DNA of 64,000 nt from assembly GCA_964017185.1 (NCBI GenBank), contig OZ024884.1, positions 19,066,048 to 19,130,047 on the forward strand, in the 5' to 3' direction. Below the pieces are notes generated by a model. The model worked only from the letters and a program-made list of their open reading frames with translations, did no database searches and had not been told where the DNA came from. A program made the translations under genes and the position numbers. The DNA comes from Rugalucina vietnamica (taxonomy: Eukaryota; Mollusca; Bivalvia; Lucinida; Lucinidae). The first letter of the stretch is position 1, and each line of letters begins with the position of its first letter. Shown piece by piece: positions 1,089-61,500 of this stretch.

Positions 1089-1322
1089 GAGCCTGTGCTT
1101 GAGAAAACCAACAATTTGGGTTTCCGACCAAGTCCGACAGAAACCATGCTGTACAGTCACAGAATAATGCTAGAAGCTTGAAACTTTGGATATAAGTAGA
1201 AGAGGAATTTTACTATCCCTGTGGCGAACACAAAGGCGCTGATCAGCTGTGCAGTTACTGCACAGCTGATCTGCTTCTTTGTTTTGGCATATGCAAATTT
1301 TTGGTGTTCTCATGCAAGGCCC
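1089..1322 (+). mobile_element. MITE family A copy, TGTGCAG-type hairpin
   Basis: The left end is GAGCC and the right end GGCCC (one change from GGCTC). ATAT lies on both sides. The internal palindrome around 1240-1275 has the TGTGCAG/CTGCACA arms. No coding capacity. Confidence 0.8.
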
Positions 1323-2132
1323 ATATATAAATAATGCTGAAAATTGGCACAAAGCAGGGCTTTGAACTTTATAATGGAAGATAATATGATTATAGATTGT
1401 CCCATTTACTGCTGAACATAGGGGTGATTTAAATGATGCTGTGCTCCCTGTGGTTCGAGACATTTGTATACCATCACATGCAACACCTTGCTGTAGTCCA
1501 GTATATGGTCGACGGTCGTAAATATGATACTAGAGATTTTGCTGTCATCCGAGACCTGATACAACTTTAAATATTCTGGGACAACAGCAAGGTTTTGAAT
1601 ATAAATGGTTTACAAATGACTGGGACAACAGCACAGGTAGCATTATTTGAATCACCCCATGTTGAATGTCATTCTTATTGTCATAACTTGGTGCCCTAAA
1701 TAGTCTTTAACTCATTTACTTTTTTGGGACATAGGCAAACAGAATAGCCCCAGATGTGACACTACAGAACGCGGTACTATTCTGTTTGCTTAGAGAATTT
1801 TCATGGAAAAATTGAATAAAATTTAAAAATCACTCCTGATGCCCCTAAAAATGGAAGTGATAATGATGGGAGAATCCATTTGTCAAATATGGGTAAATAA
1901 TTGGAGCCCCCAACCTCTGGATCTTGAGTCAGACAAACTAAACACTAGGCGATCATGCAAGCTCACTTACAAGTGAATTAAAAGAAAACACAAAAGAAAA
2001 CGTGCAAGAATAATTAAAGAGTCTAATGGGGTTTTAAATGATATATCCCCGTGAGGTTCAAGTCTTTATAAAGAAATAGGAACAGGATAATTTACAAACC
2101 ACACATGTGATTGAAGTTGCACTTTTCAGCTG
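1323..2132. other. no gene recognised
   Basis: No convincing exon. The only structure noticed is the short inverted repeat listed at 1734-1789. Confidence 0.4.
1734..1789. repeat. short inverted repeat GGCAAACAGAATAG
   Basis: GGCAAACAGAATAG at the left is answered by CTATTCTGTTTGC at the right. The same left block, continuing into CCCCAGATG, recurs at 20651, so this is a dispersed short hairpin element. Confidence 0.5.
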
Positions 2133-2844
2133 TTAAGCTAGTATCTCACTGGCATGCGAATTCCTCGCGACTGTTTCGCGAATTCAGTCGCGGCAGTTTC
2201 GCACGACATTCGTGCGAGTGTCGTGAGAATTTTCACGTGTCGCGAACTAGTCGCGAACTTGTCGCGAAGGTTTTCAACATGTTGAAAAATTTTATGCGAT
2301 TTTTTTCTCCAAAATATTTCGCAAGACTGTCGTGCGACGGTCGCGCGACGTTCGTGCGAGTGTCGCGAACTTGTCGCCGCGAAATTTTGGCGAATTTACA
2401 ATGCAAAATTTTCGCGACACTCGTACGAATGTCGCGCGAGTGTCGCACGACGGTCGCGCGACAGTCTTGCGAAAACCTCGCGACTATCTGGCGAGAAAAT
2501 AAAACTAAGCAACATTCGTACGAATGTCGCGCGACACTCGCACGAATGTCGCGCGACTGTCGTACGAATTTAAATGAAAATAAGTTACATTTGCGGGAAA
2601 GTCATGAGACACTCTCACGAATGTCGTGCGACTGTCGTGCGACAGTCGCACGACTATCGCACGACAGTCGCGCGATATATTTTCAAAATTAGACCGAAAT
2701 TCGCGAATTTGTCGCATAAATGTCTGTTCAATGAGACTGCAATGTGAAAGTTGTGTTTATATTGTTTATCTTTGTCGCGAAATAGTCGCGAACTATTCGC
2801 GAACTAGTCTCCAGTTGTCGCAATCCAGTGAGATAGGGGCTTAA
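2133..2844. mobile_element. TTAA-flanked fold-back element filled with TCGCGCGA-type motifs
   Basis: The left border reads TTAAGC and the right border GCTTAA. Just inside, TATCTCACTGG on the left matches CCAGTGAGATA on the right, so these are terminal inverted repeats with a likely TTAA target duplication, as in piggyBac- or Kolobok-type elements. The interior is packed with variants of GTCGCGCGAC, GTCGTGCGAC and CGAATGTCGCGCGA, which are self-complementary, so the whole body can fold. Long open frames on both strands here are by-products of the CpG-rich repeat and show no protein signature. The superfamily is inference from TTAA alone. Confidence 0.6.
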
Positions 2845-3183
2845 GAGAGTCTGCTAAACTCTTCAACTTGAATATTTAACAGTTTCAATTCTCTTTGCAC
2901 TGTTACAAGAATAGCATTTTGACCCTTTTTGGAGCCAGCCTCCCTTCAATACAAATTCTGGGGTTAACAATGGTATACTTTTATGTTTTCTCTTTTACAT
3001 TAGAGTTAATGCTGGATGGCACAATTCCAGTAAGCAATCTGGACATAGCAACTGGTTCCTGTCTTGCCTTGGTATTTACAGTACTATGAGGAGCTTAAAG
3101 TGTCTTTTACTCAAGTATCCAACTAAGGACCGCTCACTCTGGAGTCCTTGCTCCGAATCTGAGTCCTCCACTCTGATAATATT

Positions 3184-4049: not shown

Positions 4050-4077
4050 ATTAGCTCACCTGAGCCAAAGGCTCATA
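4050..4077 (+). mobile_element. solo 5' terminus of element family E
   Basis: TTAGCTCACCTGAGCC followed by AAGGCTCA matches the first bases of the long E elements at 21896 and 52273. The rest of that element does not follow, so this is a short fragment. Confidence 0.5.
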
Positions 4078-6631: not shown

Positions 6632-6865
6632 TGATATTTTGGTAGAAAACCAGATTTTTTGCCTATGCCAAAACAGAGATGCTGATCAGCTGTGCAGTAA
6701 CTGCACAGCTGATCAGCATCTTTCTTAGCTACACAGATAGTGCAATTCATCCTCCACATTAATCTAAAATTTCAAGCTTCTAGCCTTCTTCTGTGACTGC
6801 ACAGACTGGTTTGTGTTGGAGTTAGTAAGAAACTCTGAGAACTGGTTTTCATGCCTGGTGGCTCA
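6632..6865 (-). mobile_element. MITE family A copy, TGTGCAG-type hairpin
   Basis: The right end is GGCTC and the left terminal bases are eroded before GAAAACC. The internal palindrome near 6680-6715 has TGTGCAG/CTGCACA arms with centre TA. AAATTGAT occurs on both sides, longer than the usual 4-bp duplication. Confidence 0.75.
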
Positions 6866-7096
6866 AATTGATCTGAGTTGGTTATTTGTCGGTTATTTGT
6901 GGTGGTATTTAAATCTATAGAAGAAGTATCCTTATTAATTGACCTAAGTGGACAACAATAGGACATATCCATTGAAATAAGTATTGAAGTAACTTACTTA
7001 TGGTTTGATGTACAATATGACTATCTTAGTGAAGTGTATGGAAATTGAAGATGAGCAAAATCGGTTTAAAAAAGGTCAAGAGCTAAATACGGAAAT

Positions 7097-9199: not shown

Positions 9200-9397
9200 T
9201 GGGGGTGGTTGCCTAGTGGTAGAGCGCCAGACTTTGAATCAAGAGGTCCTGGGTTTGATCCCCACCTGGGTCACCATATGTATTTATTAAGTGTGTCCTT
9301 GAGCAAGACACATTCACTCCCAAGAATACTGGTTTATAATACCCAGGAAACAGTGGCTCCGTCCCGACATGACTGAAAATTTTGGACACCAGGCCTG
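9200..9397 (+). mobile_element. tRNA-derived SINE whose tail leads into a tandem array
   Basis: The head has an A-box-like TAGTGGTAGAGCGCC near 9214 and a B-box-like GGTTTGATCCC near 9252. The core reads GTGTCCTTGAGCAAGACACA and then ACTGGTTTATAATACCCAGG, as in the copies at 4914, 14506 and 20785. The last core bases (CATGACTGAAAATTTTGGAC) merge into the first unit of the 43-bp array, so the SINE tail probably seeded it. Confidence 0.8.
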
Positions 9398-10122
9398 TTC
9401 ACTCCCATTTGTTATTAGCAAATTTTGGACACCAGGCCTTTTCACTCCTATTTGTTATTAGCAAATTTTGGACACCAGGCCTATCCACTCCCATTTGTTA
9501 TTAGCAAATTTTGGACACCAGGCCTGTCCACTCCCATTTGTTATTAGCAAATTTTGGACACCAGGCCTGTTCACTCCCATTTGTTATTAGCAAATTTTGG
9601 ACACCAGGCCTATTCACTCCCATTTGTTATTAGATAATTTTGGACTCCCATTTGTTATTAGCAAATTTTGGGCACCAGGCCTGTTCACTCCTATTTGTTA
9701 TTAGCAAATTTTGGACACAAGGCCTGTTCACTCCCATTTGTTATTAGCAAATTTTGGACACCAGGCCTGTTCACTCCTATTTGTTTTATTAGCAAATTTT
9801 CGACACCAGGCCTGTTCACTCCCATTTGTTATTAGCAAATTTTGGACACCAGGCCTATTCACTCCCATTTGTTATTAGATAATTTTGGACTCCCATTTGT
9901 TATTAGCAAATTTTGGGCACCAGGCCTGTTCACTCCTATTTGTTATTAGCAAATTTTGGACACCAGGCCTATTCACTCCCATTTGTTATTAGCAAATTTT
10001 GGACACCAGGCCTGTTCACTCCTATTTGTTTTATTAGCAAATTTTGGACACCAGGCATGTTCACTCCTGTTTGTTATTAGCAAATTTTGGACACCAGGCC
10101 TGTTCACTCCCATTTGTTATTC
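9380..10122 (+). repeat. 43-bp tandem repeat array (about 17 units)
   Basis: The unit runs from ATTTTGGACACCAGGCC through TTCACTCCCATTTG to TTATTAGCAA. Most units are 43 bp. Two shortened units lacking the ACCAGGCC part lie at about 9632 and 9877, each following the same variant unit, so a block of roughly 245 bp has itself been duplicated. Open frames through the array merely read the repeat. Confidence 0.9.
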
Positions 10123-10398
10123 GCAGGAATCTCAGATTTTTCTTACAACGGATGACAATGCATAAGCCACAAAAGTTTGTAACATTGATACTGGTATTGA
10201 CTTAAACATCATTGATGTCACAATAAGAATTGGAATTCTTTGTTGATTACCATATTCTGTCTTTTGAGACTGGTTTTGTCTTGATTACATTTAAATGTCA
10301 AAGTTCGTTTAAACGGAGGCGTTTCCTCTCTTAATGCATTGTATGAAATAAATGCATGCATGTTATTGGTTTGATTCCATGTAAATTAAGGTCACAGC

Positions 10399-14136: not shown

Positions 14137-14505
14137 CTCCCTCATGAATAAAAAATTCTGAATCAAGCTGAATCGGTCTGAATTTTTCTGAAACTTGTCT
14201 GAATCAGTCTGAATGATTATTACTCCATCTGAATCTGACTGAATCAGTTTAACTGGTCTCTGAATCCATGCTGAATCCATCTGAATCTTTATGATTTGAT
14301 TCAGAAGAATTCAGATGATCTGAATCTGTCTGAATCTATTCTGAATATTACTTGAGATCTGAATCGGTCTGAAACCATTTCTGAATGATTCAGACTGATA
14401 TAAATGTTAAATTACTTGAAGTAATTAGTTATCTGAAGTCTGAATCTGTCTGAATTGACAATCCTGATTGATTCAGATTAATAATGGGCCTTATTGTAAA
14501 TAACG

Positions 14506-14716
14506 TTTGCTTGTTTGTTTGTGTTGAGGCTTAACGTCCCAGCCAATAATTTTTCAGTCATGTCGGGACAGAGCAAATGCTTCCTGGGTTTAACCAGTAC
14601 TATAGGGAGTACATGTGTCTTGTTCAAGGACACAACATGGTGACGCCTGTGGGAATAGAACCCAGGACCTCTCAATTCGGAGTCTGCCGCTCCACCACTA
14701 CGGCACCACGCACCCT
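14506..14716 (-). mobile_element. tRNA-derived SINE
   Basis: Read on the minus strand, a tRNA-like head (GGTGGAGCGGCAGACTCC, then GGGTTCTATTCCC) is followed by the shared core TGTGTCCTTGAACAAGACAC and CTGAAAAATTATTGGCTGGG. It lies inside the fold-back element at 14137-16338. Confidence 0.75.
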
Positions 14717-15629
14717 TGTATAAATAATGTAACATTAATTTTAAGGTATCTTAGGTCTGAATCTTTATGAATCCTCTCCAAATTATTCAGTTTATGCATT
14801 GGTTATGAATGTGTGTTACCAGCCCCCCCCCCCCCCATACAAACACACACCCAGACCTGGGATACCAGGGAGTTTGACTTTTCATCCAGCAAGCTTTGCT
14901 TTTCACTGGGGGGGGGGGGGGGGGGACAGTCATTTAATGATGACGGGTAAAAACCCTGCTAATTCCCCACTAGTCTGTTAAGTTTTCATTACACTGCCAA
15001 ATTTATATAGCAAACCCTTTGGTAGGATGTCATAAAACCTCTAATCAGTTTAAAGTAAAAATGCTTTATGATACATGTAAGTTGTTGTCAAAGTGTGGGT
15101 AAAAGGAAATTATACAGCAGTAAAACATTTTTGACAACTGTATTCTATATTTTAAACTCTAGCCCCACCCAAGCCAAGGACACAAGGACCACATGACCAC
15201 AATAGCTCTTTGCAGTGCAGTCGAGCTTATTTACACTTCTCTCTTATTTTCTGAACTAAGCTTCTGGATTCTGTCTGAATCTGTCTGAATCATCTGAATC
15301 TTTCTGAATCATCTGAATCTGTCTGAATCATTCTGAATGATTCAGAAGGAAGTCATGTGACTTTAAGGCATGCTGGGACTTGTCCTTTTCTAAATGTCTT
15401 CTGCAGAAGAGAGGTCAAACTCAACAGAAATCTCTATTTAGTAGGCTTTTACTTAATCTTAAGATCTGACTGATGAGGGAAACTAACAGAAACATGTCAA
15501 GAACATGTTTAAGAATTAAATGGCTGCTTGAACATACCTATTATGCATGCATTGCTCTGAAATTCATTTTTGTACCTAAATATCCTTACCCCACCCACAT
15601 CAAATACATGTTATATGCTTGAATATCAG

Positions 15630-15905
15630 ATATCTTTTGAACCAGTAGTTGGATTTTTACCAAACTTTCACAGATACATGATTGAGAGAGGGGAAAGAGT
15701 TGATTAGATTTTGATGACCTTGACCTAATTTTCAAGGTCACCAGCTCATGAAAAGTATTTGAATCAGCTTTTCTGAGCGGATATCTTCAGAATAAATGGA
15801 TGGATTATGACCAAACTTGCAGAGAAACATTTTTTGAGAAGACTAGAGTAGATTAGATTAGGTAGACCTTGACCTAATTTCCAAGGTCACCAGCCCATTG
15901 AAAAT
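15630..15905 (+). repeat. two diverged ~145-bp units with AAGGTCA motifs
   Basis: Two related segments each run GATATCTT..., then GACCAAACTT..., and end TGACCTTGACCTAATTTYCAAGGTCACC. The phrase resembles the unit of the E elements and suggests an old relative. Confidence 0.5.
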
Positions 15906-15965
15906 AATACGCTGATGAGGGTCAGACGTCTGAATCTTGTCTGAATCTTTCTGAATTTTTCCCTA

Positions 15966-16320
15966 TTTCAGCAAAGATTCAGATAAGCAATGATTTGATG
16001 ATTCAGACAAATTCAGAATGGATTCAGACAGATTCAGAAGAAGATTCAGATGTCTGAATCTGTCTGAATCTGTCTGAATATGTCCCAATTTCAGCAAAGA
16101 TTCAGACATGCAGTAATTTGATGATTCAGACAAATTCAGAATGGATTCAGACAGATTCAGAAGAAGATTCAGACAAGATTCAGACAAGATACAGACAGAT
16201 TCAGAGGTCTGAATCTGTCTGAATCTGTCCCAATTTCAGCAAAGATTCAGACATGGATTCAGACAAATTCAGACATGGATTCAGACTGATTCAGAAGATG
16301 ATTCAGACGGATTCAGACAT
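15966..16320 (+). repeat. tandem units of about 123-145 bp in the right fold-back arm
   Basis: TTTCAGCAAAGATTCAGA begins at 15966, 16089 and 16234. Each unit has GATTCAGACA runs followed by the inverted TCTGAATCTGTC run, so each unit is itself a hairpin. Confidence 0.7.
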
Positions 16321-16526
16321 GATTTTTCCATAAGGGAGACCAATAGGTATGATATTCATTTGTCTCCGAATTACTAATGCTCAACCAATTTTGGCAATCA
16401 CAAATTAGATGTGAAATATCGATCATTAAATAAACGAGAGTTACCGTACGGTGACTCGGGCATAGATCGCCGGAAGCATATTGTCCGTTTATCACTCACT
16501 CGCCATATCTCCATACCGACCCTACA

Positions 16527-16527
16527 C

Positions 16528-17644: not shown

Positions 17645-17678
17645 GAATGCTCTTAGGTCAATGGCGATGACAATAAAT

Positions 17679-17873
17679 GAGCCGCCTCATGGGAAAACCA
17701 ACAATCTGCATAATGCGAAAACAAAGACGCAGATCAACTTACACGGATAGTATAATCCCTCTACTTCCTAAATACGAAATTTCATGCTTCTAGCTGTCTT
17801 CTGTTACTGTGCAGTCCGGTTTGTGTCAGACCTGTTCGGAAACCACATTGTTGGTTTTCCCACGAGGCGGCTC
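17679..17873 (-). mobile_element. MITE family A copy lacking one hairpin arm
   Basis: GAGCC and GGCTC ends. After GCGAAAACAAAGACGCAGATCA the sequence jumps to ACACGGATAGTA, so the second arm of the palindrome has been deleted. The TIR type is GGGAAAACCAACA. Confidence 0.75.
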
Positions 17874-18068
17874 ATTAATGGCAGTCTATACAGCTTGTAG
17901 CTGGGTTGCTTTCTTGGACATTTTCAGGGGTAAAATTGAAATGTCAGCTCAAAATATAATGAAACGGCAGGTTACAAATGACTTTTGCATTATTTATTTT
18001 ATTATGTCTAGTGCAACAACTTGCATACAAGGCGGAGACATGAATTATTCTAGACTCTCGCATCATTT

Positions 18069-21261: not shown

Positions 21262-21393
21262 ATGTACATAGTGTATGCTAGTCTTCAACCTACACTATAA
21301 CATTGAATTCTCACACCAAATTGTCTCTTGTTGACACCTACTTCTGAAAAATGGTAATCTAATCATGGTCCCGAGAAATTAGTAGGATTAATT

Positions 21394-21634
21394 GAGCCAT
21401 GCCACTGAGAAAACCAGATTTTATCTTATGCAAAAACAAAGACACAGATCAGCTGTGCAGTAACTGCACAGCTGATCAGTGACTTTGTTTTCGCCACACA
21501 GATAGTACAATTCCTCTTCTTCTCAAATCAGAAATTTGAAGCTTCTAGCTTTCTTCTGTGACTGTACAGGCTGACTATATAAATGTGTCGGACCTGGTCG
21601 GAAACACCGAAGACGGTATTCTTGTGTCCCAGAT
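21394..21634 (-). mobile_element. MITE family A copy, TGTGCAG-type hairpin
   Basis: GAGCC left end and a well preserved palindrome TGTGCAGTAACTGCACA near 21447. The right terminal bases are eroded. AATT flanks are plausible. Confidence 0.75.
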
Positions 21635-21895: not shown

Positions 21896-22522
21896 TAGCT
21901 CACCTGAGCCGAAGGCTCACAAGGTGAGCTAATAGGATAGCCATGATCCGGCGTCCGTCCGTCCGTCGTCCGTCGTCCGTCGTCGTCCACAATTTCAAAG
22001 ATCTTCTTCTCTGAAACCGCTTGGCCGATCTAGTTGAAATTTTATGTGGAGCCTCCTTGGGTAGTGGCATTTCAAGTTTGATCGCAAAATCCAGGTCATA
22101 TGACCAAGATGGCCGCCACGCCCATATATGGTAAAAACCCTTCAAAAATCTTCTTCTCCAGAACCGGTGGGCCGATTTCCACGAAACTTGGCATGTAGTA
22201 TCGGGGACTTCAGCCCATCATAGTTTGATAAAATGATGACCCTTGGATGACCTTGATCTATTTTACGGCAAGGTCAAATTTGGAAACATAGGCTTTTACA
22301 TGAGAAAAAGTGAAAACTATGGATTTTTGAAAACTATTGCAGCCTGAGGCCTGAAAAGTGGTAGATGCAAACAACTAATGGAGTAGATGAAGGTATGTGA
22401 TTAATATAGGTCAAGGTCATCTCTTGACCTTGGCCAGTCTGTTGTCCATACACACTTTTCAAAGATCTTCTTCTCTGAAACTGCTTGGCCAATCAAAGTG
22501 AAATTTTATGTGGAGCATCCAT

Positions 22523-24322
22523 AAGTAAGTAAGTAAGTAAGTAAAGTCTTTATTTATAGAGGGTAACAACATTTAGTAGTACAACTAATCTTCCATGAGG
22601 CCCTCATATAATAAATATGCAAATATATACACAAAATACAAACAAAACAGTTTAAGCATAATTCAAATGTATCAGAATTCATATTAAATGTATAATGGTG
22701 AAACTAGCTGTGTAAATACAATAATCATATCAACTGTCTTTATGCATGTCCATACAGCAAGGCAGTAAATTGAAAGAGGCTTTCTTGCATCCGCCAGTGC
22801 ATGATAAACAGTAGTAATATAGATAACTGTACTAACACAACATTATATCCATTATATCCATTGCACCTTAACCAAAACGAAATGAGAAGGTACTCATAAA
22901 GGAATTGAATAGAGGCACCATTAATAAATATCAATAATGATACATATTAAATTTCATGCATGACTTAGTGCACATATAAATTTGAACAAGCTATGTAGAA
23001 TAAGAATGAAACAGTTTACAAACATATATATAATATACAATACTACACAATTATGAAAACATGAAGCAAGAAAATTGGTACAGAATACCAATAAATAATA
23101 TGAAAAATGGAAAGTAAAAAAAAAAAAAAAATTGCAATACGAACAATACTATAGGACTAAGCGATCATCTTCCATGACATTAAGCTTTAGATAGTAACTA
23201 CCCTTCAAGTAACCATTTTACACATCGGTTGTGAAAAGACCCCAAAGTATCTGCCTTCTTGATTGTTTCTGGCAGGCAGTTCCATATCATGCATCCAGAA
23301 TAGCGCATACTCTGCTTGAAGGCTTCAGTACTAGGCTTTGGGGGAACATAACATTGTGCTGTGGCTGACCTTAAAACTACTGAAGTGTTCACATTGCTGC
23401 GCAGCTTAAAATTTTCTGTAATATATACAGGTGCCTTTTCGTGGAAAACTTTAAACATGAATTTAGCTTTCCTTAGAAATACCCGATCATAAATAGAATG
23501 AATATTTAGAGATTTCATAGCTTCCGTGGAGTCATCAACATTGTAGTCTAAAATTACACGGCATGCACGTTTCTGCAATCGGTAGATCATCATTTTGTTA
23601 GCTTCTGAAGTACTACCCCACACTATATTACAGAAGTCAATATGTGGTTGGATGTAGGATTTGTAAAATTGTACACGGTGTTCTTTTGACAGAAATGCTT
23701 TAATTTTTGAAAGAAGCCAAATATTTGATGTAATTTTCTTTGTGACATGCTTCACATGTCCAGACCATGTTAAGTTGTTATCTACAAAAACCCCTAGAAT
23801 CTTGTCATTATTGATTGCTTGCAATTCCTCATTATTGTAAAAAAGTTTAAGTTTATCATTATTCAGCCTTTGTCGTTTTTGATTAGTTGTTACAAACATC
23901 ACCTTGGTCTTTGCAGAATTAAGGATCATTCCATTATTTTTACACCAAAGTTGTAATTCATTTAATGCAGCCTGTAAATTTTGCTCAATTATTTCTTGAG
24001 AAGTATGTATAAAATATAAAGTTGTATCATCTGCATATAAATCAATAAATACATTGTTTATACATAAAGGTAGGTCATTTATAAATATAAGAAATAAAAG
24101 GGGCCCTAAGATAGAGCCTTGGGGCACGCCACATGTTACAGGCTTAAAAGAAGAATTGCTATTATTTACTTTTACTTGTTGCCGTCTTTCAGTCAAATAT
24201 GAGGTGAACCATTGTAGTGCTTCATTTTTTATACCATACATCTCCATCTTACGTAATAGTATCTTGTGATCTACCAGGTCAAATGCTTTTTTAAAATCCA
24301 CAAGGACTAATCCTACCATTTG
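22523..24322 (-). mobile_element. 5'-truncated CR1/Jockey-type non-LTR retroposon, recent insertion
   Basis: This 1.8-kb insert interrupts the second E unit exactly at the phrase GGAGCATCCATGGGTAGGGG, which is intact in the other units. TCCAT occurs immediately outside both ends (22518-22522 and 24323-24327) as the target-site duplication. On the minus strand the element has the distal part of a reverse transcriptase ORF, a ~650-bp 3' untranslated region (23197-22546) and a (CTTA)n tail at 22523-22544. A short-repeat tail with 5' truncation is typical of CR1-like elements. Confidence 0.9.
23198..24319 (-). CDS. reverse transcriptase fragment of non-LTR retroposon
   Basis: An open frame of 373 codons without internal stops encodes the central and C-terminal part of a CR1/Jockey-type reverse transcriptase. 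Visible motifs are the first catalytic block LVDFKKAFDLVDH (residues 6-18, catalytic Asp at 8), the GVPQGSILGPLLF block (64-76) and the active-site YADD (95-98). A thumb and C-terminal region follows, including GVFVDNNLTW near residue 180. The endonuclease domain and the N-terminal part of the RT are absent because the insertion is 5'-truncated at this point. The Met at the start is simply the first ATG after the truncation, not the native start. The copy cannot retrotranspose by itself. The intact frame indicates a young insertion. Confidence 0.92.
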   Translation of the reverse strand: MVGLVLVDFKKAFDLVDHKILLRKMEMYGIKNEALQWFTSYLTERRQQVKVNNSNSSFKPVTCGVPQGSILGPLLFLIFINDLPLCINNVFIDLYADDTTLYFIHTSQEIIEQNLQAALNELQLWCKNNGMILNSAKTKVMFVTTNQKRQRLNNDKLKLFYNNEELQAINNDKILGVFVDNNLTWSGHVKHVTKKITSNIWLLSKIKAFLSKEHRVQFYKSYIQPHIDFCNIVWGSTSEANKMMIYRLQKRACRVILDYNVDDSTEAMKSLNIHSIYDRVFLRKAKFMFKVFHEKAPVYITENFKLRSNVNTSVVLRSATAQCYVPPKPSTEAFKQSMRYSGCMIWNCLPETIKKADTLGSFHNRCVKWLLEG

Positions 24323-28408: not shown

Positions 28409-28989
28409 AATTGTCCTTTGAAATATTTCTGTTCGGTAACACCATATTCCTTTTAAGCACCCAGGATGCTGAAATACACACAGTAATATAGGGATCAAAC
28501 ATGATTTTCCCAGTAATGAGCATAAGTAAAAGCCATGTATTAACAGCACATGCGCGTGTGAATTGCAATATTAATGCATGGCTTTCTCTTCATTAATAAA
28601 CGGCTGTTAATATCGTGTGACACGGGTATTTATGCAATAATACAGGTTAGCATGCTTTGATCAATTGAATCAAAGTCTGTGAATGTCTTTGACAGCCAAA
28701 ATGCACAGACTAGCAGCTGATGGAAACTGCATAATCTGTGATTCCACTATTATAGAGAAAGTGTTGTAAATTGTGTGGGTGTTATTGAACAGAACCCGGC
28801 TATTGCAATGAATTTATTCAACATTTATTAAATTTGTTCAGGATTTAGGAACTTAGCTTTATTAAGTTCATATCAAAAATTAATAGACTTATTTAGAATA
28901 GTGAACCCCACACATAGTACCCTAATCCAGCATCAAAATGGTTGTAGATAGCAGCTTGAATGACAAATTTAATGAGATGGTTCCTATTT

Positions 28990-29223
28990 GAGCCACCTCG
29001 TGGGAAAACCAACAATGTGGTTTCCGAACAGGTCTGACACAAATAAGGCTGTACAAACACAAAAGATTGCTAGAGACTGGAAATTTTGGATTTAGAAAGT
29101 AGAGGAATTGTACTATCCGTGTAGCTAAAACAAAGGTGCTGATCAGCTTCGCGGTTACCGCGAAGCTGATCTGCGCCTTTGTTTTCGCCTATGCAGATTG
29201 TTGGTTTTCCCATAGGGCGGCTC
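28990..29223 (+). mobile_element. MITE family A copy, TTCGCGG-type hairpin
   Basis: GAGCC and GGCTC ends, ATTT on both sides. The palindrome TTCGCGGTTACCGCGAA is perfect at 29148-29164. TIR type is GGGAAAACCAACA. Confidence 0.85.
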
Positions 29224-29858
29224 ATTTCTCATTTTGTCCTTATATTGTCATCAATTATGTTCAAAATAACTCTCTGATGCCTAGGTTACATTTGCTCGGC
29301 AGGGGCCATACAATTTTTTGGTCTTCAATATTTCCTATGGCAAGCCAAATGTGACTATTCCTCCGTATTGGTCAAATGGATACCTAATTTACGATTTCAC
29401 AAGGAAAACATATTTCTCAAGGAACAAATGCATCACATATGGAAGATTTTACCTCTGCATAAAAATAAATTTCGTTTAGCAATAATTAATGATTCCTTCA
29501 GTAAAATCATCAAGGGTGTCTTATTCATGTCTATATCTTTTTTTTGGCCTCTTAAATCTCTTAAATCATTACATTTTATTGCTTTTTGTTTCAAGGCATG
29601 AAGATATTTTTGGTAAATATTTATTTCAACTGTTTATACTTGATAGGCAGCAGCATGCGAGAAAATGCAGTTTTTGCCCAATATGCACAGGTTTGTGGTC
29701 TCATCAAGACTCCCAAGTGATAGAGACTTGCCTTTGAAGTCAGATCTATAGTACAAGAGCAAGATGGCACAGGATGATCATAGTCTGCTTTCACAACAGT
29801 TTATACTGCAGCTTCTCCTGAGCTTTAAGGACAAGTTTGCACAGAAGAAAAAAGAAAT

Positions 29859-30092
29859 GAGCCACCTCGTGGGAAAACCAACAATGTGGTTTCTGAACAG
29901 GTCCAACACAAATCGACCTGTACAGTCACAGAAAAGAGCTAGAAGCTTGAAATTTCGGATTTAATTAGTAGAGAAACTGTACTATCCGAGTAGCGAAAAC
30001 AAAGGCGCTGATCAGCTTCGCAGTTACTGCGAAGCTGATCAGCGCCTTTGTTTTCGCCTATGCAGATTGTTGGTTTTCCCATGTGGTGGCTC
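29859..30092 (+). mobile_element. MITE family A copy, TTCGCAG-type hairpin
   Basis: GAGCC and GGCTC ends, AAAT on both sides. The palindrome centre is TTCGCAGTTACTGCGAA, intermediate between the two main types. Arms extend outward to GCGAAAACAAAGGCGC and its complement. Confidence 0.85.
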
Positions 30093-30319
30093 AAATATAC
30101 ATAGTATCCTAACTTTGGTTCTCGCCTTTCCCTGCTTTTTTTTCTAGGACCTTTAATCTTATCTATCCCAGCTTCTGAAGTTGCTAGCTTGTCAATGTGG
30201 GATATCTTCATCCATTTTGGCAATTTAGGATTGGTCTCAATTTCTGATAGATGGTTTCTGATGTATAACAGTTACTGTTGTTTTATATTTAAGGGTGTAT
30301 GATAGAATACCAATGCCCT

Positions 30320-34340: not shown

Positions 34341-34493
34341 ATAACTCTTTGTCACAGTGTCCCAGATTTGAGATGACATACAACATTGTAGACAACAACA
34401 ATTCCATTCACGGCAGGGGATGCATCGCTGCAAGCCACATCTTCGCTAATTCCAAGCTCTCAATTCCCACAATTGTAAGGCCATGGATTAATT

Positions 34494-34713
34494 AAGCCAC
34501 ATCATGAGAAACCCCAGTTTTTTTTCCTATATGAAAGTAAAAGTGCAGATCAGCTATGCAGTAACGGCACAACTGATCAGCTCCTTTATTGTTTGGCCAC
34601 ATAGATAAATTCAAAATTTCAACCTTCTAGCTTTTTTCTGTGACTGTATATGCTGGTCAGTCTTGGTGTCTGGGTCAGACACCATGAAGACCTGCTTTCT
34701 TGCGTTATGGCTC
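34494..34713 (-). mobile_element. MITE family A copy, mismatched hairpin
   Basis: Left end AAGCC, right end GGCTC, with AATT on both sides. The palindrome reads TATGCAGTAACGGCACAAC, so the arms are no longer complementary. It separates the 33-bp and 70-bp arrays. Confidence 0.75.
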
Positions 34714-34799
34714 AATTGAAGGTCTCTCCTCTGCTGACAGGTAATTTCAGTGTCGTTAATTGCCTTCCTGCTTCCGCGACACGGAATACCACAACAGTG

Positions 34800-39635: not shown

Positions 39636-39716
39636 AAGTGACATTCACCGGGCTTGCTAGTTTGAAATGAATGATTCAAAGACCGGTTTATAGATGACGT
39701 GTATCATGTATAATGT

Positions 39717-39951
39717 GAGCCGCATCGTGAGAAAACCGGATTTTTGCCTAGGCGAAAACAAAGGCGCAGATCAGCTTCGCGGTAACCGCGAAGCTGATCA
39801 GCGCCTTTGTTTTCGCTACTCGGATAGTACAATTCCTCTTCTACTTAAATCCGAAATTTCAAGCTTCTAGCTCTTTTCTGAGCTTGTACAGGCCGGTTTG
39901 TGTCGGACCTGTTCGGAAACCCCGAAGACCGGTTTTCTCGCGTCGCGGCTC
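39717..39951 (-). mobile_element. MITE family A copy, TTCGCGG-type, near-consensus
   Basis: GAGCC and GGCTC ends with ATGT on both sides. The palindrome TTCGCGGTAACCGCGAA with long outer arms is perfect. TIR type is GTGAGAAAACCGG. The good preservation suggests a young copy. Confidence 0.88.
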
Positions 39952-40019
39952 ATGTGATTGTCGCTAATGCTGTTAGCATAGTGTCGCTACCATTGTTGAC
40001 CTAATTATTAATCAACTTT

Positions 40020-44994: not shown

Positions 44995-45735
44995 TGCAGA
45001 CTGACATTAAGACCAAATAATGCAGCTTCTAAACAGTGCTGTAACATATTGATAACTTATAATAGAACTAGTGCATTTAGATAATTCTTACTGGCTGAGG
45101 AAAGAAAAATGATATAAACTCTCTTCGAATGTTCTTTGAACCACTTAAAAGGATTAAATGTGAAGAAATGCTTTTACTTCGGCCTCTAAACGGTGCTATA
45201 ACATCTTATTGATACCTATAGTACAGAATAGATACTTCTTACTGGCTGAGAAAAAAAAAATGATCTGGCAAAAGAGAACTTTGTCAGTGTGCTCTTATAG
45301 TCTTACAATGATTAAATGTGAAGAAAAATGGTTTAAGTGCAGCCTCTAAACTGTGATGTATCATATGAGCCTCGACGCGAGAAAACCGGTCTTCGGGGTT
45401 TCCGACCAAGTCCGACACAAACCGGCCTTTACAAGCTCAGAAAAGAGCTAGAAGCTTGAAATTTCGGATTTAAGTAGAAGAGGAATTGTACTATCCGAGT
45501 AGCGAAAACAAAGGCGCTGATCAGCTTCGCGGTTACCGCGAAGCTGATCTGCGCCTTTGTTTTCGCCTAGGCAAAAATCCGGTTTTCTCACGATGCGGCT
45601 CATATTATACCTATAGTGCAGATAGATACTGGCTTAGAAAAAAATGATCTGGCAAAAAATGATATAAACTTTGTCAGTATGTTCTTAGAACCTCTTACAT
45701 TAGGATTAATATGTGAAGAAAGATGCTTTCAGGAA
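44995..45735 (+). repeat. ~155-bp tandem repeat (about 4 units), split by a MITE
   Basis: Units share CAGC(T/C)TCTAAAC, then TAACATNTTATTGATA, CTTACTGGCTGAG, AAAATGATCTGGCAAA and TTAAATGTGAAGAAA. Starts are near 45005, 45178 and 45340. The last unit resumes after the family A insertion at 45367-45601. Confidence 0.7.
45367..45601 (+). mobile_element. MITE family A copy, TTCGCGG-type, near-consensus
   Basis: GAGCC and GGCTC ends with ATAT on both sides. The long palindrome around TTCGCGGTTACCGCGAA is perfect. It sits inside a tandem repeat whose sister units provide an empty-site comparison. Confidence 0.88.
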
Positions 45736-46737: not shown

Positions 46738-47011
46738 TTCTATTGTATCCTATTGTTGATCATTTCTCGTAGCCATTATTTCTGGCAATTGCCGCCATTT
46801 TTCATCAGAAATATTACAAATGCTGTCAAAATATTGCCAGACTTCCTCAGCTTATTCCCAAGGCTGTCAAAACAAATTTATATCCGACCTTGGTATTAAT
46901 AATTGTCCAGTCAAAAAACATGGTGAGAGGTTTTTGGCAATGTCGACTGCCAGGTCATGATTTTCTGTCTGACCTGTTTTGTCAGAATTGCTTTGTCTTT
47001 CCAATATATTT

Positions 47012-47244
47012 GAGCCACGTCATGAGAAAACCAACAGTGTGGTTTACGAACAGGTCCGACACAAAGCAAGCTGTTTAAGCACAGAAGATGGCTGAAGGCT
47101 GGAAGTTTTAGATTTAGAAGGTAGAGGAATTGTACTATCAGTGAAGCGAAAACAGAGGCGTGATCAGCTGTACACTTACTGCGAAGCTGATCTGCTCCGT
47201 TGTTTTCACCTATGTAAAATGTTGGTTTTCTCATGACATGGCTT
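47012..47244 (+). mobile_element. MITE family A copy, mixed hairpin
   Basis: GAGCC left end, right end GGCTT, ATTT on both sides. The left arm is TGTACAC and the right arm CTGCGAA, so the arms belong to different types. Confidence 0.75.
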
Positions 47245-48924
47245 ATTTTACGTTGTTGAAGACAGAACAATACATGTAGTTTTGTGTGGGAATGGATAGT
47301 TTGCTTGAAGGTCGGCGAGCGCTGTTGCTTTGCCATGTTCTTCATACAAAATTAACTTGTTTTGCACCTTTTTGTTTATTTTTTTTTAAAGGGATGGAGG
47401 TGTCTAGCTCAGGTATGATATAAATTGAAACAATGATAATTTTATTTGAATTGATTCGTTTATGTAACTTTTCAAATGAATCCTGTAATTGATCATGAAG
47501 AAGTAAATCGAAAGTGTCTTTCCAACAAATAATCTTAATGTATAAATTCTTTTTTTTTTCTCTCTCCAAATTCATTTAAGTTTTTAAATCTTATTCATCC
47601 CACTTCTGACACCATCTAATGCATTTGTAATAGGTCATTTTGCAAATCACACCATGCATTGTAACCAATCAGATTATAAACATGGATATTTTCATGATGA
47701 TTTTCATGACAGTTCTCAAAAAATTATACAAACTCTACATGGAAAAGTGTTTATTTGTGTTTATCATATGACGTCAGTGTTTTCCAGTGGATAACGTCAT
47801 GTCATAAAAATCGTATGACCACACGTGTATAAACACTTTTGCGGGAATACATAACCTCGTTACGTCCGTAACAGCAATGTAAATTTTCATTGAAAATATG
47901 TCCACTTCGAAGGCGATGAAATCCTATTTTAAAAGTCATATGATAAAACAAATCTTACATGTAGTCATTTCATATAAAATTTATTAAACCTGCCAAAGGC
48001 TCATTTAATAAATTTCATATGAAATGACCACTCGTGTAAGATCCTCTATTTAAGGTCAATTATGATCATTTGAATAAATAGATAAATAAATAATTAAATA
48101 AACAAATAAAATGAAAACAAAATATATTGCACCCCCACTCCCCACCCCTAGTATGATAAAGCCTATTTTCTTCTCAGAATTATTGTATGACAAGAACCCA
48201 TTGACAGTGCAAGAGTTATGGAACTTAATTGTACTCTGACAAGAACAAATTGCTGAATAGCTGAAACTGTGATATTTGTTGTAATTTAAATTGAACTCAG
48301 TTGTTGAATTAACTCTGTGATAATTAACTAATTTCTAGAAGAAAAACAGTCTCAATCTTTCTGGAAACGAGACTTTGAAAGAGTCTGTTTAATGCTTCCC
48401 TAGTAATTAAACCAGATCCAGTTAAAAAGATAATTCAAACAGTTACCAGAGTTTTAAATTAGAAAGATGTTGTTTAAATCGGGAAAGATGTGGCGCTGGT
48501 AAAATCTGGTTGAAAACAAACCATGGATTATGAGGCTCTTGATGGATGGAATGTTCAGAGGACAGATATTTGGGTTTTGAGAATATCAAAGATGAATATT
48601 TTGACAGAAAAGTCAATCTAAAAAATTGCTTCATGACAAAGCCAATTAAGAAACTGCAAAGCAGCAGAACAATATAAGCTAAATAAAATAGACATTGTCA
48701 GGGAATACTCAGCGAAATTCTGCATACTGTTAGAAATTCTGAAAATTGGTTTGATGTATTCAGGGTTGAAACTCCGCATGAATGGGAAGTTTAATTAATT
48801 AAGGTTTGGAGACAATGCAATACGAAGTAGGCTATGTGAGACCACCTACGATTGATTAGTTTTATTCTTATTGACTTTGATATACATATATAACGTCATC
48901 GTGACGGTGACTGAACAGTCATTT
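47245..48924. other. no gene recognised
   Basis: AT-rich. Only the palindromic segment at 47950-48045 stands out. Confidence 0.35.
47950..48045. repeat. imperfect palindrome, ~40-bp arms
   Basis: CTTACATGTAGTCATTTCAT with AAATTTATTAAA on the left is answered by TTTAATAAATTTCATATGAA and ATGACCACTCGTGTAAG on the right. Probably a MITE. Confidence 0.6.
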
Positions 48925-50151: not shown

Positions 50152-50218
50152 GGATATGAATCTATTTTTTGCATGGTTGATCTCAATCTGAGAGCAGCGA
50201 TTGCCTCCATAATGAAAT

Positions 50219-50453
50219 GAGCCGCGACGTGAGAAAACCGGTCTTCGGGGTTTCCGACCAGGTCTGACACAAACCGACCTGTACAGTCACAGAAGATGGC
50301 TAGAAGCTTGAAATTTCGGATTTAAGTAGAAGAGGAATTGTACTATCCGTGTAGCGAAAACAAAGGCGCTGATCAGCTTCGCGGTTACCGCGAAGCTGAT
50401 CTGCGCCTTTGTTTTCGCATAGGCAAAAATCCGGTTTTGTCACGATGCAGCTC
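50219..50453 (+). mobile_element. MITE family A copy, TTCGCGG-type, near-consensus
   Basis: GAGCC left end, right end AGCTC, AAAT on both sides. The perfect palindrome TTCGCGGTTACCGCGAA extends out to GCGAAAACAAAGGCGC. TIR type is GTGAGAAAACCGG. Confidence 0.88.
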
Positions 50454-50721
50454 AAATTAAGGGATTCCTATGTTCTTTTCCGCTTCACTGATTTTTTCCT
50501 GGTTTCCTTATATTTTCTGCTTCATGTTAATTATGCAGCAGCAAAATTTGATCCACATGGGGAGGAAACATTTTTCTTGCACACCAGACAGAAATTGCTA
50601 CACTTTTTGCCTGGGTGATAAAATTGCATCTCACCCAGGTGTTCTCACCCAGGCTAAGTGCACCAAAAAATTACGCAAAACCTTGAAATAAACCATATTT
50701 GGGTAGTTGTTGTGCAAGAAA

Positions 50722-52272: not shown

Positions 52273-53815
52273 CTCACCTGAGCCGTTAGGCTCACAAGGT
52301 GAGCTTATAGGATGGCCATGATCCGGCGTCCGTCCGTCGTCCGTCCATCCGTCCGTCATCCGTCATCCGTCCACAATTTCAAAGATCTTCTCCTCTGAAA
52401 CCACTTGGCCAATCAAAGCCAAATTTTACATGAAGCATCTGTAGGAAGAGGGAACCAATGTATATATAAATAATCCAGGTCACATGACCAAGATGGCTGC
52501 CAAGCCCATATATGGTAAAAACCCTTAAAAAATCTTCTACTCCAGAACCGATGAACTGATTTCAATGAAACTTGGCATGAAGCATCTATGACCCAAGTAC
52601 TACTATGTATATATAAATCATGACCCTGCGATGACCTTGACCTATTTTACGGCAAGGTCAATTTTGGAAACATTGGCTTTTACATGTAAAAAGTGAAAAC
52701 TATGGATTTTTTGAAAACTATTGCAGCCTGAGGCCTGAAAAGTGGTGGATGCAAACAACTAATGGATATGATGAAGGTATATGATTAATGTAGGTCAAGG
52801 TCATCTCTTGACCTTGGCCGGTCTGTCGTCCATACACACTTTTCAAAGATCTTCTTCTCTGAAACCACGTGGCCATTCAAAGCCAAATTTTTTATGAAGC
52901 ATATATAGGAAGTGGGAACCAATGTGTATATAAATAATCCAGGTCACATGACCAAGATGGCGGCCATGCCCATATATGGTAAAAACCCTTCAAAAATCTT
53001 CTTCTCCAGAACTGGTGGACCGATTTCAACGAAACTTTGCATGAAGTATGGATGACTCAAGTACTACAATGTATATATAAATCATGACCCTGTGATGACC
53101 TTGACCTATTTTACGACAAGGTCAACATAGGTCACCAATGTATTTGGATGGGGAAAACTTTTAAAAAGTCATTTGAGGTGAACATCTTGCAGGAAATGGG
53201 TAGTAGGACTGAATATTAATGATTCTGAAATAAATTTGACCCAAGGGCTTATATGCCCCCACCCCGGGGTAATATACATGTATATTACCATAATATTCAA
53301 ACATCTTCTCCTCTGACACCACTTGACCAATTAAAACCAAATTTTATGTGAAGCATCTATAGGATGGGGGAACCAATGTATATATTTATAATCTAGGTCA
53401 CATGACCAAGATGGCCGCCATGCCCATATATGGTAAAAACCCTTCAAAAATCTTCTTCTCTGAAACCAATGGACTGATTTCAATGGAACTTGGCGTGAAG
53501 CATTGATGGCTAAAGTACTACAATGTATATACAAATCATGACCCTGTGATGACCTTGACCCAGTTTATGGCAAGGTCAACATGTGTTGCCTATGCATTTG
53601 AATGGGGAAAACTGTTAAAATGTCATTTGAAGGGGAAAACCAGCGGGAAATTGGCAAATGGACAGAATATTGATTATTCTGAAAAAAGAAAATAAAAGCC
53701 CAAGGGCTTCATCTGCCCCTGCACTGGAGTTAAATTCCATAATAGTATTCAAACATGTTTATTGGTATATGCAGCAGATCTCATGTGAGCGTTTACAGGA
53801 CCATTGGTCCTCTGG
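52273..53815 (+). mobile_element. element family E, three-unit copy inserted in MITE B
   Basis: It starts CTCACCTGAGCCGTTAGGCT, then a GTCC/ATCC-rich tract. Three ~460-bp units have CAAAGATCTTCT-type starts near 52380, 52844 and 53297. The last bases include CATGTGAGCGTTTACAGGAC followed by the hairpin AGGACCATTGGTCCT. A 3' hairpin near a CT-rich end is reminiscent of Helitrons, but I could not define the exact ends. Confidence 0.75.
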
Positions 53816-56687: not shown

Positions 56688-56760
<73 letters not shown>

Positions 56761-58131: not shown

Positions 58132-58299
58132 TTACCAAATTAAATTGTATTTGAGTTCACGGAGTAGAACTCGTACTGAGTAAAATATGCTGGTGAAATT
58201 TACTTTTAAAATTGCCATTCGATACCGTAAAGTCCACTTTTAAAAATGGCACTATATGCTATTATGGTCCGGCATATATTTCTGTAAATCTTTGAACAG

Positions 58300-58509
58300 T
58301 CATGGACCATTTAAACAACGCACAAATCCCTCATCATCAACATTAAGTCCCATTCTATCTGTCGGAAGTAACTTTGATTCATTTCGTCTTGCTTTCTCAT
58401 ATCGAACCCCAAGAGTACCCCTCTCAACAGCATTTCTCTCGAAAGACATAACTGCCTCCTTCTTCTTTCCTTTCAACCGTTTTCTCTCTTGATGGTCGAA
58501 GAAGTGGTC
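58300..58509 (-). CDS. YqaJ gene, terminal exon
   Basis: Acceptor ACTATTGCAG; starts KDHFFDHQERKRLKGKKKE and ends RCLNGP then TGA at 58300. Basic and probably nuclear. Confidence 0.8.
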   Translation of the reverse strand, partial: DHFFDHQERKRLKGKKKEAVMSFERNAVERGTLGVRYEKARRNESKLLPTDRMGLNVDDEGFVRCLNGP

Positions 58510-61500
58510 TCTGCAATAGTAATTGTGTATTAAAACATGTCGTGAAAACATACCCAGACTCGTGCGTTTTAGAAACATTATACATGTACTTGCCAATTTC
58601 ACTTCTATAACCATGTCTTTTCTGTTATAATTGCGAGATTTGAGCAAAACAAATAGTTCTCTACTACAAAAAAAATCTCTAAAGGGCCAGAAACATTACT
58701 TTTTATTTAGATGCAAAGCCACAATTGCAAATGGTATAGATTGTATTCTATTGAAACCGTTTCGATGTCCCATCATCCTTAACATCTCATAACTTACTTA
58801 GTGTCGATCCCTCTGATGATCCTTTCACCATTTGCCAACTTCGGAACCGATGGCTGGTGTGGAACGTCTGTGTAGAATGATGGAATATTCTCCGGCTCTA
58901 CAAGCTTATAGACAGTGCTTCTTGCTGTCCTGTAGGAGAACGTCCTGGAATTAAAATGAAAACTCCATGTACGGTTAATGTTTGTCAGTCAATGCTTAAA
59001 ACAAATGTACCTGCCTCTCTAGGCTAGACTGACTGTACTATATGAGCCACCTCGTGGGAAAACCAACGATGTGGTTTCCGAACAGGTCTGACACAAACTG
59101 GGCTGTACAAGCACAGAAGATGGCTAGAGGCTGGAAATTTTGGATTTAGAAAGTAGAGAAATTGTACTATCCGTGTAGCGAAAACAAAGGCGCTGATCAG
59201 CTTCGCAGTTACTGCGAAGCTGATCTGCGCCTTTGGGTTTCACATAGGCAGATTGTTGGTTTTCCCATGATGCGGCTCATATAATAAGCATTATAAAATA
59301 AAGAAAAGAAAGCACAGGAATGGACATGATTAAATTCAAAATTCCAACCCAGACGCAAAATGTGAAACAAAACTAAACAAAACAAGACGGATAAAACAAT
59401 ATGACAATACATAATAATGAAGAGTAAGATGACTAGCTCTTTTCTAGACAGGTAGCCATCAGGCTAACTACAACTAAAACAAAATTTGCGTATACATGTA
59501 CAACAAAGACGTAGACAAACTAAACATTCAAAGTAAAGAACCGCCTCTGTATGGTCAGCAAAGAATTTCTGGAGGATTTAATGTCTAAAATCATTGCATT
59601 ATAAACAAGATAAACAAACTAACATTACTTGTAGGATTAAGCAATAAAAAGAAAACTGAGATCCTTTAAGAGCAATGAGCGTATTGATGAGATAAGGGAT
59701 GGGCCATACATGCAGTTAATGCATTTCTGACAAAATCAGGTTTAGAATAGGGCCCAACGATCAATGTCTGAAATCGGGGATATGGCGTTTGCCATCACCC
59801 TTAACCTTAACAATATTGTAATTAAAAAAGTGTATGGAATTATGCGTGTGTGGACAGTAAAGATTTTTTTTTACTTTTTAAAGATAAGGAACACACAAAC
59901 CTTAAAGATAGGGAACACAGCAGATGTGTCTATACAGAGTTAGTATTCATACAAAATAAATAAATAAATTGGTAAAAGAAGTATCTCTACGTTGTGTAAG
60001 AACATTTGTTAATCATGCTTACCTGTTAGGGTCCAGGCGTGTGTAAAGTTTCTCAGTGGCTGTGCCTATGAACCGTCCAAATTCCATGGTTGTGACAGTA
60101 CCATGTCCCTGTTTGTCATACTGTGTTAATTCGGAGAAGAACGTCTCTCCCATCATAGAGCTGAAGGCTCTGACATTGTAAGTTCCTGTTTCACATAATG
60201 CGTACAAGAGAGACTTGGCATCTATATTGGCTATCAGAGCCTCCCATAATTGTAGCGGCCACCCACGAATGTTCGTCGTTGGTGGAGGGAACACACTAAA
60301 GTCTATTTCATCAAGTAGCCTTTTTCTCAACCGTTTTCGCATCGCTATTCTGTCTTTGGCTGGAATTCCTGGATCGTCTTCACTCTTCCACCATTCACGT
60401 ATATCTCGACATAGGTCTGCGGCATCCACGTCACCGTTCTGTCTCATTTTTCTTTCCACAGGTTCGCTGAAATGGGTGACTGCCATGGAAACTGACATAG
60501 GTTCTGTGATTTCCTCTATCATTACTGGCGAAAGGAAAGTGGTTTTCGACTTTGCAACTGTCAGCCATGGCGTGTTTGGAAGACCATGTAAGCCTCCCTT
60601 ACAACATTTTCTGCGGGCACTTCCGACACTCTTCGGAGAGTTTCCGTATTGAGAGAGTATCCCTTTGGAAACCAACACACCGGGGCACATTTTATACTGT
60701 CTTTTGTCCATAATCTATCCAAATCACAACACAGATAAACTATTGCTTCTGACGCCTTTTCTCTACGAAGGTTGTATGAACGAATTAGCAATGTCTTAAT
60801 GTCACTGAGTACAGATATAAGGTCCTTTGCATTGATTGATTTTGAGTCCGACATATACGTGTTATCCACAGACCTATCGTTGACCGCTGATTCAAACAGC
60901 CCTATGAGTTCAACATTTGAGCTTTTGTATTCTATTTCTTCTTTCAAAGCTTTCACCTCTGTTGATAATTTTGTTGGCTTCTTTGGATTTTCATTCCCAT
61001 AAATGTGTTTCGCTAACTCATAACTCCTTTCAAACAAATCGCTGTCCCTGTTTAACTTAAACACTGAGGAAGTATCAGGTCTCCATGACAAGTACAACAA
61101 ACTGTCAACGTTCAAAGCCTCAATTTCTGCCAAGCATTGTAAGAGATACCGAGGTGGAAGTTTTTTATGCATTTGCTTTACAGGACATTTGAGTTCAATT
61201 GCTGCTGTAGTTGAATCAAAACTATCTGCCCGTCTCAAACTGCCATCCGGGGAAACAACCATAAACGAGCCATCTAGCTCAACACAGCCTTCCTCGTAAA
61301 AGCGCACACTTGGTTCAATAACAGGTAATACCTTCCCAACCATTGTCGCAACGGCGTTTTGTTCATTGATTGTCCCGTAGTCCAACATTTCTTGCACGGC
61401 TGCAGAAAACGGCTTTGGTGGCACGTGGCAAATCACTTCCTCAAAATGTTCCTTTTCCTTTTGTAATCCGTCGAGTCCAATCGCTTTGAAAAATGTGCTA

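Follow-up and report, generated by a model that had tools for sequence, protein, structure and literature searches.

Template switch mutations have been described in the stems of RNA genes, where a single event turns a mismatch into a Watson–Crick pair, sometimes together with an inverted loop (Monttinen & Loytynoja, 2022; PMC8794818). In that study, a corrected mismatch accompanied by an inverted loop was regarded as potentially the strongest evidence of template switching, and it proved extremely rare in rRNA data. Here, we analyse a palindrome in which both signatures are found, that of MITE A, a family of miniature inverted-repeat transposable elements (MITEs) in a stretch of 64 000 nucleotides (hereafter the window) from the lucinid bivalve Rugalucina vietnamica (GenBank assembly GCA_964017185.1, contig OZ024884.1, positions 19,066,048 to 19,130,047). 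The assembly searched comprises 1.09 Gb in 47 contigs. Whereas those RNA cases concern genes under selection, MITE A is a mobile DNA palindrome present in tens of thousands of copies. Its arms occur in a few symmetric states, and we lean towards an explanation in which arm copying makes these states, amplification and recombination spread them, and recognition by the transposase keeps the two ends of the element matched.

MITE A resembles MITEs in general in its shortness, AT-rich target duplications, inverted ends and very high copy number, and differs from them in a long, nearly perfect internal palindrome and in a measured mosaic structure with matched ends. The REP/BIME palindromes of bacteria are prokaryotic and are not known to have a terminal-repeat and target-duplication anatomy like that of MITE A. 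They are abundant small palindromic repeats, as MITE A is (PMC3733652); the likeness is functional at most and does not imply membership. A search of the open-licence literature in PubMed Central (PMC), mostly at the level of titles, returned no paper that we recognized as dealing with template switching in MITE palindromes or with linkage in MITE families.

MITE A and its symmetric arm states

In the alignment, MITE A is about 240 bp long, begins with GAGCC and finishes with GGCTC. These terminal inverted repeats, about 25 bp long with inner matching stretches, come in two main versions, the inner part being either AAAACCAACAAT/ATTGTTGGTTTT or AAAACCGG/CCGGTTTT. The palindrome consists of 32-bp arms flanking one centre base (T), 65 bp in all, with a resident T·T mismatch at pair 16. 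It had been called central in the first-pass annotation, but sits about 170 bases into the element. Folded as one DNA strand it reaches −40.6 kcal/mol (shuffled mean −10.6, z −14.5). Variation at the unpaired centre is much higher than at a paired T of the arm, with 2062 against 123 single-base variants genome-wide when the rest of the pattern is intact, and among the matches listed the centre variants are mostly T to C. Deletions that start or end within the palindrome, as expected of unstable palindromes, were seen in the window copies at 17678, 18068, 19352, 42683 and 57041.

Identical flanking 4-mers, i.e. target-site duplications (TSDs), are present in 67 of the 88 copies with both canonical ends, to which the count was restricted and among which are young copies fetched on purpose. 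Sixty are of the AWWT type (ATAT 40, ATTT 12, AATT 5 and AAAT 3) and seven are not (ACAT 3, GTAT 2, TTAT 1 and CTAT 1). With terminal inverted repeats, TSDs of constant length, a short body and a high copy number, MITE A belongs to the short, non-autonomous DNA transposons and, to judge by its length alone, has no coding capacity. Sola2 elements are described with 4-bp TSDs of the AWWT type (PMC3627910), and Sola elements are reported among bivalves (PMC10294476). The AT-rich AWWT type found here therefore points to Sola2, and MITE A is probably mobilized by a Sola2-type transposase, our best guess from the TSDs. Sola2 and its non-autonomous derivatives also share short inverted ends with MITE A; the comparison covers the TSD and the shortness and inversion of the ends. 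No transposase was noticed in the sequence covered here, and a 65-bp internal palindrome is not mentioned in the passages on Sola2 consulted (PMC3627910).

A profile search of the window gave 30 matches (26 of them longer than 150 bp, 10.0% of the window covered), compared with 11 copies named in the first-pass annotation. A further 49 matches lie in 200 kb of sequence (20 spaced 10-kb stretches of contigs C1–C3, 4.9% covered), which extrapolates to about 267 000 copies in the genome if these stretches are representative. The window gave no match in Rfam at the gathering threshold, and one exact pattern, run against each of the viral_contigs and genome_contigs collections, found none.

The first-pass annotation had distinguished three symmetric states of the palindrome, TGTGCAG, TTCGCAG and TTCGCGG, in nine copies. 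All nine carry an exact 17-bp inner palindrome, and the two copies cited as having lost symmetry (34493 and 47010) are indeed asymmetric. When only pairs 3, 6 and 7 were left free in a genome-wide pattern, 50 686 exact matches were found, compared with none for the reversed control. The first 100 matches, which all lie within 3 Mb at the start of contig C1 and follow contig order rather than a random draw, comprise 60 TTCGCGG, 26 TTCGCAG, five TGTGCAG and nine asymmetric copies, so that 91 of 100 are in a named symmetric state (letters in the lists of 100 matches were counted by hand and rechecked once, with a small error possible). For the genome set, a filter on profile coverage and length left 151 of 178 matches (L001 was dropped as a duplicate of the window). 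Of these, 127 have no more than one gap across the 64 arm sites, and 113 that show a named symmetric state entered the tree; the three named states account for 110 of the 127.

In the window, 27 of the 30 matches were aligned (three short ones were dropped) and a fragment at 39489 was also removed from the tree and tests, leaving 26 copies. In these, 84.5% of the cells at pairs 1–32 (pair 16 aside) are Watson–Crick, compared with 27% when the arm columns are randomly re-paired. Covarying cells number 34 against a re-pairing mean of 8 (reached in none of 2000), and covarying pairs number 12 against 5.9 (reached in seven of 2000). Tree-based nulls reach 34 cells in 0 or 1 of 200 draws, whereas 12 covarying pairs are ordinary under them (means 9.7–11.0, reached in 40–91 of 200). 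Depending on the tree, 19 or 13 double changes fall on the same branch; 5000 re-pairings give on average 6.7 and 5.9, and at most 18 and 14. A covariation test of the R-scape kind, which the first-pass annotation had proposed, found no significant pair among all 27 495 column pairs of the window copies, and the best E value was about 0.05 when it was limited to the 32 arm pairs. The covariation within the window depends on few pairs (3, 6 and 7). A plain covariation test would mislead for MITE A, because the copies recombine, so that no single tree fits them, and because one change inherited by thousands of copies counts as many.

Mosaic descent, matched ends and decaying arms

The interior of MITE A is near linkage equilibrium while the arms and the terminal repeats stay matched. 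In 61 copies from the window and the spaced stretches, taken irrespective of state, mean r2 is 0.22 for sites less than 20 bp apart, 0.04–0.05 at 40–160 bp (shuffled background 0.022) and 0.32 at 180–200 bp. For 112 copies, partly picked by similarity, the corresponding values are 0.25, 0.08–0.12 in the mid-range and 0.30; L049–L087 were excluded from the linkage tests. The long-range linkage is that between the two terminal repeats, which are about 200 bp apart. Clusters formed at r2 ≥ 0.5, blind to pairing, join left with right terminal variants, arm sites with each other (−7, −6, +6, +7; −3, +3) and two pairs of interior sites. Terminal–terminal r2 is 0.33 (bootstrap 0.23–0.42), as against 0.045 between left terminal and interior sites, a point value below its own bootstrap range (0.05–0.085), probably since resampling inflates r2. 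The terminal–terminal value is 0.355 in the spaced stretches alone and weaker, 0.241, in the window alone. Left and right end types agree in 91 of the 93 copies typed at both ends (two are mixed; 58 of 151 were not typed).

The arm states behave as short inherited haplotypes that are spread across subfamilies by recombination. Each of the three occurs with both left-end types, the CCGG type being thinly sampled (young copies aside, it has only one TTCGCAG and three TGTGCAG copies). On a flank tree of 113 copies, the approximately unbiased (AU) test rejects a single clade for every state (p = 2e-7, 2e-53 and 0.007), and TTCGCAG is scattered as if at random, with 15 changes against a shuffled mean of 16.0. 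The 21 state changes on this tree were discarded as a count of mutations, being confounded by recombination. In 34 copies, pair 3 has r2 ≤ 0.17 with every marker except its partner. The chimera L086 (contig C1:11911279–11911559) is clean and fresh: it shows no difference from the young subfamily to the left of +20 and belongs to another subfamily beyond it. Its left end is of the CCGG type and its right end of the GTTGG type, and the TSDs on the two sides are both ATAT. Unlike ends are also found in L099 and in a further mixed-end copy, L135, and mixed-end recombinants of this kind arise, apparently rarely.

These data bear on gene conversion between copies, which would swap the inner palindrome as a block, both arms at once. 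The random placement of TTCGCAG, the independence of pair 3 from non-partner markers and the chimera L086 all favour it, and we rate its chances as even. It would spread states but cannot create them, and it does not predict the loop flips joined to mismatch correction that are described below. It is compatible with arm copying, as the route by which states spread.

Once inserted, copies decay almost independently in their two arms. Measured against the consensus of each of the three states, the 127 copies carry 243 private changes in a single arm and 17 in both, compared with 13.3 doubles expected under independent arms and uniform sites, and 10 of the 17 restore a pair; decay therefore breaks symmetry. 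Pairs 4 and 5 have nine single-arm private changes each and no double, and pair 3 has seven single-arm changes beside 110 symmetric copies. That both arms change together, as the first-pass annotation had put it, holds for the subfamily states. Ordinary decay comes close to the independent arm substitution, with no paired excess, that it had named as the contrary outcome, although a modest paired excess exists. Outside the palindrome, two copies of the same state differ on average by 0.135 (TTCGCGG), 0.233 (TTCGCAG) or 0.240 (TGTGCAG), and the divergence is highest among asymmetric and deleted copies (0.315 and 0.305). These within-state means, which do not separate TTCGCAG from TGTGCAG in age, were used instead of nearest-neighbour ages (0.054, 0.107 and 0.138), which lean on copies fetched on purpose.

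Probable arm-to-arm copying and the origin of the states

Arm-to-arm copying seems to occur, rarely. One footprint is at the resident mismatch, where numerous A·T and T·A copies have a proper pair, as expected of correction from the opposite half of the stem. The centre base is flipped in 17 of 60 corrected copies fetched (10 of 40 A·T and seven of 20 T·A, drawn from 70 and 67 listed copies, respectively, all on contigs C1 and C2), so that correction is coupled with loop inversion, although recombination among the copies blurs the single branches on which a one-event origin of these changes would show. Among uncorrected T·T copies the flipped centre is estimated at 557 of about 31 000 (1.8%; Fisher p = 5e-16). 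Flipped copies also have longer perfect arms: pairs 17–32 are perfect in 10 of 17, compared with 12 of 43 corrected unflipped copies, five of 20 C·T copies and two of 20 T·T copies whose centre is A (one-sided tests of mismatch counts, p = 0.009, 0.031 and 0.003, respectively). No two flipped copies are closer than 0.039 within the A·T or T·A group. The orientation of one copy, L115, relies on a weak flank score and on a reading of its ends.

A second footprint is found at the CpG of pairs 5/6. When both arms have decayed, the pairing combinations number 330 (TG,CA) and 183 (CA,TG) and the non-pairing ones 185 (TG,TG) and 169 (CA,CA), so that doubles favour pairing with an odds ratio of 1.93 (z = 4.7), independently of the four single rates. 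Direct support, at a low rate, therefore exists for the suggestion in the first-pass annotation that template switching copies one arm onto the other. As the keeper of symmetry in most copies, template switching fails, with private changes nearly independent, the T·T mismatch kept in 122 of 127 copies and the states inherited as haplotypes.

The same mismatch provides a third, weaker signal. The pair-16 T is changed, with the rest of the 35-base pattern intact, in 313 copies on the left and 167 on the right; a control T, paired and likewise within CTG, is changed in 123. A accounts for 70, 67 and 45 of the first 100 listed matches, respectively. This raw excess of T to A was not retained as strong, since the A·T and T·A patterns also match opposite-strand copies whose centre is flipped. 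When the comparison is confined to centre-T copies, the flipped ones being removed in measured proportions, the odds ratio is 2.1 on the left (p = 0.017) and 1.86 on both sides (p = 0.021).

Several observations weigh against arm copying as the source of the states. The T·T mismatch persists not only in most copies but also in the consensus of all three states; copying is therefore rare or its tract short. The inner pairs are 6–14 bp apart, where linkage is tight anyway, and the present concordance of the arms therefore needs only descent. Counts of single decay would be needed to attribute the CpG excess to one class: the paired class of 183 equals the unpaired ones, and clonal spread may contribute. 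The T to A excess is weak once flipped copies are set aside. The T·T total used above is itself an estimate from 60 of 100 listed matches to a pattern whose ends differ at a few positions. At pairs 17–21, the corrected copies as one group are not poorer in mismatches than C·T copies (p = 0.44), and the long-arm effect therefore belongs to the flipped copies; unflipped corrected copies even have more mismatches than C·T copies over pairs 17–32 (2.30 versus 1.55). At the centre of T·T copies, A is not over-represented (27 A, 61 C and 12 G of 100 listed), and this ratio of A to C gives no support to loop inversion as a process general to uncorrected copies. Finally, flipped centres could come from inversion of copies that were already perfect. 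No A·A copy at pair 16 is present among the 127, and whole inversion of T·T palindromes is therefore rare.

With these reservations, arm copying followed by amplification and recombination, with ends held by recognition, is the account that we find somewhat more convincing than its negation. A source copy would acquire a change in one arm, and hairpin extrusion with a template switch, in replication or in repair, would transfer it to the other arm. Copying tracts would usually be shorter than 16 bp, because the T·T mismatch persists. The new symmetric state would then be amplified and carried between subfamilies by recombination, while transposase recognition would hold the terminal repeats matched. 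The number of independent origins is small, with at least two transitions.

The alternatives are not mutually exclusive, and selection of half-sites and gene conversion between copies may act alongside switching. Selection at the level of source copies, in which a dimeric protein, either the transposase or a host factor, uses the arms as half-sites, or amplification requires pairing, is a serious possibility, if a little less probable than gene conversion, and is compatible with template switching. It fits most of the data equally well, in particular the terminal repeats matched over about 200 bp across a shuffled interior, the concordant ends, the centre base that varies so much more than a paired arm base, and the high divergence of asymmetric and deleted copies. 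It leaves the loop flips unexplained, and it sits poorly with a mismatch in all three consensuses that perfected copies have not displaced, and with the existence of mixed-end copies (L086, L099 and L135), of which L086 has intact TSDs. As for the form raised by the first-pass annotation, that hairpin pairing is needed for amplification, the data do not establish it: decay after insertion also predicts that asymmetric and deleted copies are the most diverged, and perfect copies have not replaced mismatched ones.

Descent and recombination alone, with each state arising once by ordinary mutation and then being amplified with its arms held together by their 6–14 bp spacing, appears unlikely. The near-expected number of private doubles (17, 10 of them Watson–Crick, against 13.3), the tight linkage below 20 bp and the shuffling of states among subfamilies are what it predicts, but each state requires matching changes in both arms (pairs 3, 6 and 7), which are improbable by independent mutation, and neither the CpG odds ratio of 1.93 nor the joining of loop flip and correction in 17 of 60 copies follows from it. 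Parallel CpG decay, in which mirror CpGs make both arms decay alike, is refuted as the main cause and has very little left to commend it: pairs 3 and 6 do lie within CpGs and mirror CpG doubles are many, but the least diverged state, TTCGCGG, is the CpG-richest, so that the states do not stem from such decay, the change at pair 7 (T·A to G·C) involves no CpG, pairs 4 and 5 have no double private changes, and unpaired CpG doubles are as common as one of the paired classes.

Window copies, neighbouring features and meaning for the family

Positions given for the copies in the first-pass annotation mark the low-coordinate ends of the elements and lie 66–167 bp from the palindrome centres. The TGTGCAG state is carried by 1087..1319 (+; palindrome 1224–1288, centre 1256, TSD ATAT/ATAT), by 6644..6866 (−; centre 6699), in which the T·T mismatch is paired and two more paired changes occur (pairs 19 and 20), and by 21393..21634 (−; palindrome 21430–21494, centre 21462). 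The two TTCGCAG copies are 29858..30093 (+; palindrome 29993–30057, centre 30025, a T; TSD AAAT/AAAT), with its mismatch corrected and all 32 pairs perfect, and 59042..59279 (+; palindrome 59178–59242, centre 59210; TSD ATAT/ATAT). TTCGCGG is found in 28988..29224 (+; palindrome 29124–29188, centre 29156; TSD ATTT/ATTT), in 50217..50454 (+; palindrome 50354–50418, centre 50386; TSD AAAT/AAAT), in 39716..39953 (−; palindrome 39752–39816, centre 39784; TSD ACAT/ACAT in element orientation), which is near the young subfamily, and in 45364..45602 (+; palindrome 45502–45566, centre 45534; TSD ATAT/ATAT), which belongs to it. The first 132 bases of this last copy are 98–99% identical to at least 39 other places among the matches listed. 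Three further copies lack symmetry: 47010..47245 (+) has unlike arms, TGTGC-like on the left and TTCGC-like on the right, the palindrome of 34493..34715 (−) is decayed and asymmetric, and 17678..17874 (−) has lost the left arm and the centre by deletion.

Elsewhere in the window, direct repeats spaced at roughly 434–466 bp and containing TTCAAAGATCTTCTTCTCTGAAAC occupy 22054–26431 and 52368–53684. An open frame of 388 residues at 23198–24364 (−) has a reverse transcriptase domain (PF00078, E = 6e-27). Another, of 885 residues at 60561–63218 (−), has no Pfam match at E 0.001; by eye, it may resemble YqaJ-type nuclease proteins. A minisatellite with a 43-bp unit and a 245-bp higher-order period lies at 9377–10125, and imperfect short arrays of 11–23-bp units (TCGCGCGAC-like) and of units of about 10 bp (TCTGAATC-like, in both orientations) are found at 2156–2809 and 14157–16324.

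Covariation is usually taken as proof of a selected RNA structure. In MITE A, whose copies are presumably mostly inactive, symmetry is mostly a matter of inheritance and recombination, with a small and measurable amount of arm copying. We tentatively propose, at a little under even confidence, that the palindrome is a natural assay of template switching, in which one switch copies an arm, corrects the mismatch and flips the loop, and that the family is a recombining population in which mainly inverted-repeat partners are linked, its states being made by switching and kept by recognition. If this is true, tens of thousands of near-identical hairpins, each bearing a single resident mismatch and an asymmetric loop of one base, would record switches. 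The family supplies hundreds of counts for a process that is usually deduced from isolated instances. It also provides a linkage map of a mobile element, with ends matched across a shuffled interior, by which the question of what keeps terminal repeats matched becomes directly testable.

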